From Aquaticitalea lipolytica (GTDB taxonomy: Bacteria; Bacteroidota; Bacteroidia; Flavobacteriales; Flavobacteriaceae): DNA of 64,000 nucleotides. Position 1 is the first letter of the stretch, and every line of letters starts with the position of its first letter. A program made the translations under genes and the position numbers. Location: positions 62,001 through 126,000 of the forward strand of contig NZ_BMIC01000005.1 of the NCBI RefSeq assembly GCF_014641635.1, written 5' to 3'. The notes below the pieces were generated by a model. The model ran no database searches and had not been told where the DNA came from. It worked only from the letters and a program-made list of their open reading frames with translations. Shown here piece by piece: positions 36,229 to 38,296 of the stretch.

Positions 36229-36307
36229 AAAGCAAAAATAATTGTTTTATATAATTATACTTCCTCTTAAAAAATTATTTTAAATTGTAATGTTTATAAA
36301 ATACAAT

Positions 36308-36748
36308 ATGGAATTGCTTCAAGAGTTTTTATTAAAAAAAGGGTATACAAAAGTTAAATTAAAACTTACAAAAACTAATCATTTTGAAATTAAAGCTACT
36401 ATAAACGGTGTAAAAGGACTTTTTATTTTAGACACTGGAGCTTCGAGCTCTTGCGTAGGCTTTGAAGCAATAGAAACTTTTAAATTAAAAGCCAAAGATA
36501 GTGATGTAAAAGCTGCTGGAGCAGGCGCAACAGATATGTTAACTCAAGTTTCTAAAAAGAATAGTTTAAAAATTGGAAAATGGAAACATAAAAAAGTTGC
36601 TCTAATTTTATTCAATCTTACACATGTAAATACAGCTTTAATAAGCCACAACGCAAAGCCTGTTGATGGTATTATTGGTGCTGATATTCTAAAGCAATCT
36701 AAAGCTATAATTGATTATGAAAAAAAATACTTGTACTTAAAATTGTAG
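36308..36748 (+). CDS. Retropepsin-like aspartic protease
   Basis: A small cytoplasmic aspartic protease of 146 residues when started at the ATG at 36308; an ATG at 36290 would add six residues and cannot be excluded. The single catalytic motif LFILDTGASSS (Asp42) and the second hydrophobic motif GIIGADIL match clan AA single-domain proteases that work as dimers. It has no signal peptide. Its gene lies 68 bp upstream of a response regulator gene on the same strand; whether they work together is unknown. Confidence 0.85.
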   Translation: MELLQEFLLKKGYTKVKLKLTKTNHFEIKATINGVKGLFILDTGASSSCVGFEAIETFKLKAKDSDVKAAGAGATDMLTQVSKKNSLKIGKWKHKKVALILFNLTHVNTALISHNAKPVDGIIGADILKQSKAIIDYEKKYLYLKL

Positions 36749-36816
36749 CTTAATTCTTTATTTGTTGGCAAAATGTAATTATCTTTAAACTCGAAATCCC
36801 TCATTATTAATAGCAC

Positions 36817-37452
36817 ATGAACGCATCAATTATTATAGCTGATGACCATCCACTTATACTTAAAGGGTTAAATGACTTTTTGTTAGAAAAACAATATAAT
36901 GTGGTTGCAAGCGCTGTAAATGGTAAAGAAGCTTTACAACATATTGAAGAGTTAAAGCCTGATATTGCTATTTTAGATATTCAAATGCCTTTTTTGACTG
37001 GTTTACAAATAGCTCAAAAATGTAAAGAGCTAAACCTACAAACAAAAATTATACTAATTACTTTCGAAAAAGATGAAACTATTTATAAGCAGGCTAAATC
37101 GTTAGGTGTTTTTGGCTATGTTTTAAAAGAATTTGCTCTCGTAGAAATTGAAAATTGTATTGCATCTGTATTAAACAACAAACCATATTTTAGTGCTGAG
37201 TTAATTAAATATTTACAGATTGAAGAAATCCCAGAAGAACTAGAACTCCTTACACCTGCCGAAACAGAAGTACTTAAACTTATTGCTCAAAATAAAACTG
37301 CTAAAGAAATTGGTGATATCTTATTTATTTCTAGCAGAACTGTTGAAAAACACAAAAGCCACATCATTAGTAAACTCAAACTAGAATCGAAAAGTGGGAG
37401 TTTAGCATTGTATGCAAAAGAAAACGAAGAATATTTAGATAAAAATACGTAG
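36817..37452 (+). CDS. NarL/LuxR-type response regulator, orphan
   Basis: A 211-residue two-component regulator. The receiver domain (1-120) has the acidic pair DD (9-10), the phosphoacceptor Asp54 in AILDIQMPFLTG, Thr82 and Lys104, so phosphorylation should be intact. The output domain (145-205) is a GerE/LuxR helix-turn-helix: LTPAETEVLKLIAQNKTAKEI, then ISSRTVEKHKSHIISKL. No histidine kinase gene is adjacent. The stop codon lies inside a 7-2-7 palindrome that begins a block repeated three times downstream (37446, 37781, 37968). The regulator is the natural candidate to bind these sites, but this is inferred. Confidence 0.95.
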   Translation: MNASIIIADDHPLILKGLNDFLLEKQYNVVASAVNGKEALQHIEELKPDIAILDIQMPFLTGLQIAQKCKELNLQTKIILITFEKDETIYKQAKSLGVFGYVLKEFALVEIENCIASVLNNKPYFSAELIKYLQIEEIPEELELLTPAETEVLKLIAQNKTAKEIGDILFISSRTVEKHKSHIISKLKLESKSGSLALYAKENEEYLDKNT

Positions 37453-37504
37453 TTCTACGTATTGTTTGGTGTTTTCTTTATCACGATATTTACAGTGCTA
37501 TTAA
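37446..37504 (+). promoter_or_regulatory. Regulatory repeat 1: 7-2-7 operator and promoter
   Basis: TACGTAG-TT-CTACGTA (37446-37461) is a perfect inverted repeat of heptamers with a 2-bp spacer, the geometry of NarL-type sites; the regulator's TAG stop codon is inside it. TTTG (37465-37468) and TATTTACA (37487-37494) follow with an 18-bp spacer and give a predicted start near 37498. The operator centre is then near -45, a position suited to an activator. The same 59-bp block recurs twice downstream. Confidence 0.75.
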
Positions 37505-37517
37505 TCAATTTCTTTTA

Positions 37518-37562
37518 GGTTAAAAAAACTCTGGATATTTAGTGATTCAGAGTTTTTAACCT
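37518..37562 (+). ncRNA. Hairpin of leader RNA 1
   Basis: GGTTAAAAAAACTCTG pairs with CAGAGTTTTTAACC with an A-bulge, closing a 14-nt loop. The inner part (AAAAAACTCTG with CAGAGTTTTT) resembles a terminator. It follows the predicted start by about 20 nt and precedes the 33-codon gene, so it could end a short RNA or control read-through. Confidence 0.5.
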
Positions 37563-37579
37563 AATTGTTAAACACCAAA

Positions 37580-37681
37580 ATGAAACACAAATTCGGCCTC
37601 ATTAATACTTTCTTTATAATAGGGTTAATAATTAGCTCTATACTTGTTATTTCTTTAAATCTATTAGTAATCTTACTTTAG
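37580..37681 (+). CDS. Tiny single-pass membrane protein, copy 1
   Basis: A 33-residue reading frame (ATG 37580, TAG 37679-37681) encoding a basic N-terminus (MKHKFG) followed by one long hydrophobic stretch rich in Ile, Leu and Val. It is paralogous in plan to the 36-residue protein at 38125: both have an FxIIGLI start of the helix, an S-ILxI-xxN motif in the middle and a VxLL/VNFF end. Both are followed by TTATTAGTTA and then a terminator. The paired conservation argues that it is translated. The function is unknown; small helices of this kind often act on a partner membrane protein. Confidence 0.6.
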   Translation: MKHKFGLINTFFIIGLIISSILVISLNLLVILL

Positions 37682-37698
37682 TTATTAGTTAATTATAT

Positions 37699-37734
37699 AA
37701 AAAGGCACAACCAATAAAAGTTGTGCCTTTTTTG
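37699..37734 (+). terminator. Terminator after tiny membrane protein 1
   Basis: AAAAAGGCACAAC pairs with GTTGTGCCTTTTTT across an 8-nt loop. Confidence 0.92.
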
Positions 37735-37780
37735 ATTTATTCTCAAAAAAGTCGAAAATCATTCAATTTTCATTAAAAAA

Positions 37781-37839
37781 TACGTAGAACTACGTATTGT
37801 TTGGTGTTTTCTTTATAACGATATTTACATCGCTATTAA
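37781..37839 (+). promoter_or_regulatory. Regulatory repeat 2: 7-2-7 operator and promoter
   Basis: TACGTAG-AA-CTACGTA (37781-37796), TTTG (37800-37803), an 18-bp spacer and TATTTACA (37822-37829) reproduce repeat 1 with only a few substitutions, ending in the same GCTATTAA. Confidence 0.75.
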
Positions 37840-37898
37840 TTCTTAGGGAGAATTATTTTTAAAAGGCTCTAAATTGTCATTGATTTAGGGCTTTTTTA
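37835..37898 (+). ncRNA. Predicted short RNA 2 (about 60 nt) with terminator hairpin
   Basis: From the predicted start, no open reading frame is seen. The transcript contains a small ATTCT/AGAAT stem and ends in a hairpin, AAAAGGCTCTAAAT with ATTTAGGGCTTTT, closing the loop TGTCATTG, followed by a T-run. The hairpin, loop included, is nearly identical to that of copy 3. This copy is not followed by a small membrane-protein gene. Confidence 0.5.
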
Positions 37899-37967
37899 TT
37901 TTTTATTAGAAAAAATAAAAATTCATTTTATTGATTATCAGTATTTTATGTTTTTAAAAACAAAAAA

Positions 37968-38026
37968 TACGTAGTTCTACGTATTGTTTGGTGTTATTAT
38001 AATTAAGACATTTACAATGCTATTAA
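37968..38026 (+). promoter_or_regulatory. Regulatory repeat 3: 7-2-7 operator and promoter
   Basis: TACGTAG-TT-CTACGTA (37968-37983), TTTG (37987-37990), an 18-bp spacer and CATTTACA (38009-38016), ending in GCTATTAA. The spacer sequence differs most from the other copies, but the length of the whole block (59 bp) is unchanged. Confidence 0.72.
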
Positions 38027-38086
38027 CTTAGTTATTATATGGGATTCTATTAAGGCTCTAAATTGTCATTGATTCAGGGCTTTTAG
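38022..38086 (+). ncRNA. Predicted short RNA 3 with conserved hairpin
   Basis: The hairpin at 38052-38084 (AAGGCTCTAAAT, loop TGTCATTG, ATTCAGGGCTTTT) differs from copy 2 at a single position. It precedes the 36-codon gene, as hairpin 1 precedes the 33-codon gene. Confidence 0.5.
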
Positions 38087-38124
38087 TTAAAAAATTAATA
38101 ATAACGATTTCAACTTTAGGTAAA

Positions 38125-38235
38125 ATGAAAACTATGAAGCGTAAATATAATCATGACAATAAATTTTTAATCATTGGATTAATTGTTAGTGTCATCTTAA
38201 TCATTACAGTAAATATTCTTGTTAATTTTTTTTAG
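38125..38235 (+). CDS. Tiny single-pass membrane protein, copy 2
   Basis: A 36-residue frame (ATG 38125, TAG 38233-38235; an in-frame ATG at 38134 would give 33 residues). A basic, polar N-terminus (MKTMKRKYNHDNK) is followed by one hydrophobic helix, FLIIGLIVSVILIITVNILV, and FF at the end. It parallels the 33-residue protein at 37580 in length, charge pattern, helix motif and downstream TTATTAGTTA. The expected topology is N-terminus in the cytoplasm. Function unknown. Confidence 0.6.
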   Translation: MKTMKRKYNHDNKFLIIGLIVSVILIITVNILVNFF

Positions 38236-38263
38236 TTATTAGTTAGTTATATATTTTCAAGAA

Positions 38264-38296
38264 AAAAGGGCAACTTATTAAATAAGTTGCCCTTTT
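38264..38296. terminator. Bidirectional terminator between the tiny gene and sucB
   Basis: AAAAGGGCAACTTAT pairs perfectly with ATAAGTTGCCCTTTT across a 3-nt loop. It serves both the + strand tiny gene and the - strand sucAB operon. Confidence 0.92.

Follow-up and report, generated by a model that had tools for sequence, protein, structure and literature searches.

A NarL-type response regulator of Flavobacteriaceae with adjoining small RNA genes predicted to feed back on it and an operator that recurs across the genome

A response regulator (RR) gene with no kinase beside it, followed by three copies of one operator-promoter block, predicted short hairpin-forming RNAs and two tiny membrane-protein genes, was noticed in a 64,000-nucleotide stretch of DNA, here called the window. 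What does such a regulator control, and what controls the regulator? The sequence of the window and of related genomes was used to approach both questions.

The regulator and its adjoining blocks

The RR shows the receiver acidic pair, the phosphoacceptor Asp, the Thr, the Lys and the LuxR-type HTH of the NarL/FixJ class. Among 12 aligned orthologues D54, T82 and K104 are invariant, D9/D10 are nearly so, and the HTH residues are likewise conserved. The earlier note had described a NarL-type RR without an adjacent kinase; the Pfam matches (Table 1) bear out the class, the neighbouring genes (aspartyl protease, TatD, odhB) include no kinase, and a crude test for the histidine-kinase N-box motif was negative within about 3 kb of the RR in all 80 related loci. 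Orthologues occur in Gelidibacter, Subsaxibacter, Formosa, Xanthomarina, Psychroserpens, Mangrovimonas, Winogradskyella, Bizionia, Meridianimaribacter and others. Most orthologous RR leaders are preceded by a conserved TATCTTTA or TATATTTA, probably the -7 element from which the RR itself is transcribed; in the window, this promoter has no TACGTA operator. Directly upstream of the RR, at 36290-36748, lies the gene of a clan AA (retropepsin-like) aspartyl protease; since an LDTGA motif precedes the RR in 51 of 80 loci, a functional tie between protease and RR is possible.

Table 1. Features of the RR locus, in positions of the window
Feature	Positions	Strand	Basis
TATCTTTA, probable -7 element for the RR gene	36780..36787	+	sequence; orthologue conservation
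Predicted sRNA target in the RR mRNA leader, TCCCT...ATTAATAGC	36797..36814	+	18-nt inverted repeat with sRNA 2
Orphan NarL/FixJ-type response regulator (RR), 211 aa	36817..37452	+	Pfam Response_reg 1.3e-25, GerE 9.3e-15; orthologues
Operator-promoter 1: palindrome 37446-37461, -7-like element 37485-37492	37446..37492	+	
Predicted sRNA 1, GCUAUUAAU 5' end and terminator hairpin	37497..37557	+	covariance model 48.3 bits
33-aa single-helix membrane protein MKHKFGLINTFFIIGLIISSILVISLNLLVILL	37580..37681	+	ORF; family in 79/80 loci; synonymous bias
Intrinsic terminator after first small protein gene	37699..37732	+	13-bp perfect inverted repeat
Operator-promoter 2: palindrome 37781-37796, -7-like element 37820-37827	37781..37827	+	
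Predicted sRNA 2, nearest family consensus, GCUAUUAAUUCUUAGGGAGAAUU and terminator	37832..37897	+	72.2 bits; covariation
Operator-promoter 3: palindrome 37968-37983, -7-like element 38007-38014	37968..38014	+	
Predicted sRNA 3	38019..38084	+	covariance model 55.5 bits
36-aa single-helix membrane protein MKTMKRKYNHDNKFLIIGLIVSVILIITVNILVNFF	38125..38235	+	ORF; conserved before odhB
Terminator closing the unit; odhB next, on the opposite strand	38264..38296	+	16-bp perfect inverted repeat

The three palindromes, TACGTAG-N2-CTACGTA, are perfect, lie where they had first been placed and stand at the same distance, to the base, from the -7-like element; in the rest of the window the best other matches carry three mismatches. 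The blocks had also been called identical, which is true of the palindrome region and the spacing but not of the blocks as a whole: over 76 nt, copy 2 is 87% and copy 3 is 76% identical to copy 1, and the palindrome centre reads TT in copies 1 and 3 and AA in copy 2. The predicted operator lies about 42 bp upstream of the predicted start, and the centres of palindrome and -7 element are 35 bp apart, which corresponds to a class II position.

All 80 related loci that were fetched, including those of Gelidibacter, Psychroserpens, Winogradskyella, Formosa, Xanthomarina and Mangrovimonas, carry one to four palindrome-promoter blocks directly 3' of the orthologous RR, and odhB is recognised downstream in 75 of them. 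Since the arrangement is kept throughout this sample, comparison across genomes excludes a chance origin in the window. Counted from the palindrome start, TTT occupies positions 44-46 in 185 of 187 blocks, and A is present at position 41 as well in 183 of 187; so constant a geometry agrees with the activating (class II) placement of the operator proposed earlier. When the pattern was made strict by adding the TTGTTTGG extension, a block was found in only 5 of 60 relatives; variation among genera at the palindrome centre and on the -33 side makes that pattern too narrow. In L237 (G168:C1:1618171-1619118), six tandem operator-sRNA blocks adjoin the RR, most of them spaced by about 146 bp.

The central four bases of the palindrome differ among genera (GAAC/GTTC, AAGT, ACCT, ACGT, GTAC). 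Within a locus, the centre is identical in 120 of 141 pairs of blocks (0.85) versus 0.36 between loci, as would be expected if one trans-acting protein reads all copies; close descent of the tandem copies could be a further source of this agreement. The palindrome, conserved and changing jointly within loci, has the 7-2-7 inverted-repeat form known for NarL/FixJ regulators and is a candidate binding site of the RR. Further, loci of the TACGTAG and TACGTAA groups have RRs with different C-terminal HTH ends, a suggestive relation that is a correlation only. Collectively, the 80 loci, the fixed register and the joint change of centres support the view, already put forward in the earlier note, that one orphan RR presides over tandem small RNAs and small membrane proteins. 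That note had named a lack of conserved blocks in related genomes as grounds for refutation, and the comparison gave the opposite outcome.

The operator beyond its own locus

A pattern search of the window's own genome returned 15 exact palindrome sites and six with one mismatch. A TAnnTTTG-like element (5 of 6 matches) stands at position 40 in 18 cases, against four or fewer at any other offset; in the offset tally of the 19 own-genome sites away from the RR locus, 17 have the element at this position. Across 149 genomes of the family, operator and -7 element occur in register in about 150 matches, versus two with the reversed pattern. Sites outside the locus are present in 9 of 15 genomes with an RR orthologue and in 1 of 19 without one (p=0.0015; hand tally). 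Going beyond the earlier note, these counts indicate that the operator is the mark of a genome-wide set of promoters.

The genes behind these promoters include several with a role in defence. In the window's own genome they include PARIS AriAB, an FRG-domain gene, a type II methyltransferase together with a second gene, and a metallo-beta-lactamase-fold gene that is conserved in the sister species; in other genomes Cas9 (sister species), a retron-type ATPase, a retron PRTase and a PHP-ATPase were found. PADLOC matches at E<=1e-5 were obtained for 11 of 30 scanned downstream genes, whereas among 37 upstream neighbours no more than 4 matched (one-sided p=0.013), in a small, post hoc tally in which one downstream gene is the second of its operon and most downstream genes are hypothetical. 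The comparison argues for a modest link of the operator to defence genes. Cas9 was considered as a general member of the regulon and rejected: the operator lies upstream of it in the sister species (G001), but at none of 30 Cas9 loci of the family sample, the window's own genome included.

Many unrelated accessory genes of the window's own genome (L011-L025) share a promoter-leader module, CTAACTTCGTTTAACTATCGATAT...CATATCGTCGCATTG, for example at G000:C1:514834, 515559, 549743 and 605037, mostly with a TACGTAG operator 40 bp upstream. The same leader is found without the palindrome, behind TTGA-N5/6-TCA, in L295, L298 and L300 (G000:C1:328235, C1:326714 and C2:12491). The pattern looks as if the operators before one leader were exchangeable. 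A second shared leader, TAATAATTCCTGTTATCCCT...GTCCACATATAAC (L016, L018, L022), precedes PARIS AriAB, the FRG-domain gene and a gene of 204 aa without any family match. As the leader is common to the two defence genes and this one, its presence suggests that the 204-aa protein may also serve defence.

Could palindromes away from the locus instead be the ends of mobile cassettes, that is, recombination sites rather than regulator sites? Many of them stand just behind an unrelated gene and before accessory genes with a shared leader, and the arrays at C1:514834/515559 are duplicated, as a cassette would predict. Against this, the register to the -7 element is fixed across different leaders, the palindrome before the same leader agrees with the operator variant of its host (TACGTAACGTTACGTA in G030), and a different upstream element can take the place of the palindrome before this leader. 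The cassette explanation is thus judged improbable, and a reading of the class B elements as integron attC sites was dropped given the -7 register.

The palindrome is also present in distant genera (G029, G030, G083), where it may serve paralogous RRs. One such paralogue (38% identity) has its own TACGTAGRYCTACGTA promoters close by (G029:C4:274970-281392 and G030:C3:278368-280607), so that the layout of an RR with adjoining operators may be more general. In L250 (G083:C33:256189-269500), repeated curlin-like genes each carry a TACGTGTNANNTACGTA operator in register, which is probably under another NarL-type regulator.

The small RNAs, their predicted target and the small proteins

Each of the three blocks had been said to lead to a hairpin, and terminator-like hairpins indeed follow at 37524-37557, 37863-37897 and 38052-38084. 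A small RNA starting with GCUAUUAAU is predicted in 78 of the 80 loci, and GCTATTA lies at the predicted RNA start, 47-64 nt from the palindrome start, in 119 of 187 blocks. An alignment of 51 distinct sequences contains two helices. Compensatory change on both sides is seen at 4 of 6 pairs of the first hairpin and 11 of 11 of the terminator (15 of 17 overall), 98% of alignment cells are paired and none of 500 shuffles reached any of these measures; the covariation counts ignore relatedness, but the sliding controls collapse too. While the stem covaries, GGG is kept in the hairpin loop. The covariance model finds exactly three copies in the window's own genome, all at the RR locus, and matches 53 of 149 Flavobacteriaceae genomes, with some copies away from the RR locus; examples are G006:C3:363495 and C3:370453, where the pattern search gave no exact palindrome. 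No Rfam family scored above its gathering threshold for the RNA.

A candidate target lies close at hand. The RR leader segment listed in Table 1 ends 2 nt before the RR ATG at 36817 and has its inverted-repeat partner at 37832-37849 in sRNA 2. In each partner two portions are conserved, and they match one another: GCUAUUAAU and AGGG in the RNA, AUUAAUAGC and UCCCU in the leader. The predicted duplex reaches -18.0 kcal/mol in the window and -20 to -25 kcal/mol in some relatives (L101, L125, L095). Within 40 nt upstream of the RR start, TTAATAGC is present in 47 of 81 leaders versus 8 of 11764 control windows. At p<=0.05, the duplex with the true leader is stronger than with mononucleotide shuffles in 57 of 85 loci and stronger than with dinucleotide shuffles in 48 of 85. 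This complementarity to the translation start region of the RR, which adds to what the earlier note described, predicts negative feedback.

The pairing is not universal. Significant pairing is absent in about 28 of 85 leaders, and the clades L060, L102, L134 and L166 show none; there, feedback may have been lost or may proceed via other contacts. An RNA pairs with its own leader only slightly better than with foreign ones (permutation 69/5000), so the signal of coevolution between RNA and leader is weak; a small difference is expected, since both sides are conserved. Pairing with class B and C leaders was no better than with shuffled leaders (p 0.13-0.81). Among other mRNAs with ATTAATAGC before an ATG, none apart from the RR was noticed to recur at the start codon across genera.

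The same RNAs could act in the manner of CsrB/RsmZ under GacA, their AGGG loops titrating a Bacteroidota RRM protein in place of the missing CsrA, with leader complementarity secondary. It speaks for such titration that a NarL-family RR would be driving several hairpin RNAs whose loop GGG is kept while the stem covaries, and that Bacteroides has an RRM protein, RbpB, with a multicopy sRNA family among its ligands (PMC11697453). However, pairing with the leader UCCCU also accounts for the AGGG loop, and the second blocks of Winogradskyella and Psychroserpens lack AGGG yet keep the leader-pairing GCUAUUAAU. Titration is thus an unlikely account of these RNAs. A CsrA sponge in particular was dismissed, CsrA being absent from all 26 genomes searched while control genomes gave matches.

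Copies 1 and 3 had been said to lead to single-helix ORFs of 33 and 36 residues, and both ORFs were found, with a strong terminator after each. Such a protein, with one helix and about 33-38 residues, is encoded in 79 of 80 loci and has the conserved C-terminal part FIIGLIxSxILIISxNILVNFF. In 39 loci with a match to the strict motif, 75% of single-base codon differences between close pairs are synonymous versus a neutral expectation of 23%; by this excess, the protein is under purifying selection and thus translated. It has no Pfam match, and NCBIfam gave only E 0.04, far below cut-off. Because a terminator sits between the promoter and the membrane-protein ORF, expression of the ORF would need read-through.

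That position raises the question of whether separate sRNAs exist at all, or whether the blocks are promoters with attenuated leaders whose hairpins are regulated terminators of the membrane-protein genes. The last block always runs into a membrane-protein ORF 25-60 nt past the terminator, as attenuation would have it. Many blocks, however, precede another promoter and no ORF (copy 2 of the window; 5 of 6 in L237), and conservation of the 5' end and first hairpin does not depend on an ORF, which makes attenuation a rather remote alternative to separate sRNAs. A type I toxin-antitoxin array, with the hydrophobic peptide as toxin and the RNAs as antitoxins, would suit the small hydrophobic peptides beside small RNAs and the repeated blocks, but is very improbable: the RNAs lie upstream on the same strand and are not antisense, pairing of RNA 5' regions with small-protein start regions is at chance level (3 of 72 at p<=0.05), and the locus is stable beside odhB across genera rather than scattered as a mobile module.

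The proposed circuit and its known counterparts

The explanation that we consider probable as a whole is that the RR activates tandem sRNAs, small proteins and an accessory regulon, and that the sRNAs repress translation of the RR. The kinase-less NarL-type RR would bind the 7-2-7 palindrome and activate a regulon of fixed operator/-7 geometry. In its own locus it would switch on one to six tandem sRNA genes, one or two of which precede a gene for one of the single-helix membrane proteins described above. The sRNAs, built of a single-stranded 5' GCUAUUAAU, an AGGG-loop hairpin and an intrinsic terminator, would base-pair, within the RR leader of roughly 25 nt, to AUUAAUAGC and UCCCU beside the AUG and block RR translation, forming a negative feedback loop in which several copies would give dosage. 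Elsewhere, the operator would place accessory genes, several anti-phage systems among them, under the RR, and this rest of the regulon would track the level and phosphorylation of the RR in response to a presumed signal. As a guess by analogy with MgrB, the membrane protein might feed back on a distant kinase. A broader proposal is held more tentatively: a phosphorelay of Flavobacteriaceae could be a master switch for acquired anti-phage and accessory genes, recruited by modules with the host's operator variant and self-limited by the tandem sRNAs and single-helix proteins.

If true, the explanation provides a directly testable RR-sRNA feedback circuit in Bacteroidota, a group without CsrA whose RR regulons have been defined in few cases. 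The circuit would come with a known operator, a target, an sRNA family outside Rfam and tiny membrane proteins that form a family. Any genome can be scanned for this operator, which makes the regulon predictable; the circuit would also offer an answer to how cells place newly acquired defence genes under common control.

No description of such a unit was found in the open-licence papers searched, and known systems resemble it in parts. MgrB-type proteins are RR-activated, single-helix and under 50 residues; the present small proteins share the size and the single helix and, by prediction, the activation by an RR, and no sequence relation was found. In the LuxO-Qrr system of Vibrio, LuxO is a sigma-54-dependent NtrC-type RR and Qrr needs Hfq. 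As here, several sibling sRNAs are activated by a regulator and target a regulator mRNA of the same circuit, both being predictions for the present RNAs. In contrast to Vibrio, the RR here is of NarL type with Bacteroidota-type promoters (TAnnTTTG-like -7), the RNA genes stand in tandem beside the RR gene with membrane proteins in the array, and no sequence relation exists. The circuit may work like the LuxR-Qrr feedback loop in Vibrio (PMC2680268) and is not placed in that family, because RR class and promoter type differ.

Similarly, in GacA/UvrY-RsmYZ/CsrB, an RR of the NarL/FixJ family drives several sRNAs with GG-bearing hairpin loops, whereas here CsrA is absent and the RNA is complementary to the RR mRNA. 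PpoR of Marinomonas, related to GacA/UvrY, controls CRISPR-Cas and phage resistance (PMC8523701). Within Bacteroidota, FopS/GibS of Bacteroides thetaiotaomicron, compared by description, are likewise a multicopy sRNA family of about 65-70 nt, which is bound by RbpB, has ordinary promoters, represses susC mRNA and is unlinked to an RR gene (PMC11697453). Rfp18 of Flavobacterium psychrophilum is also a small RNA conserved in Flavobacteriaceae; its third stem-loop targets protease mRNAs, and it is not reported beside a response regulator (PMC9723704). Against this background, sRNA-mediated feedback on an RR is known as a kind, and what is new is the RNA family, the small-protein family and a regulon that can be read from its operator.
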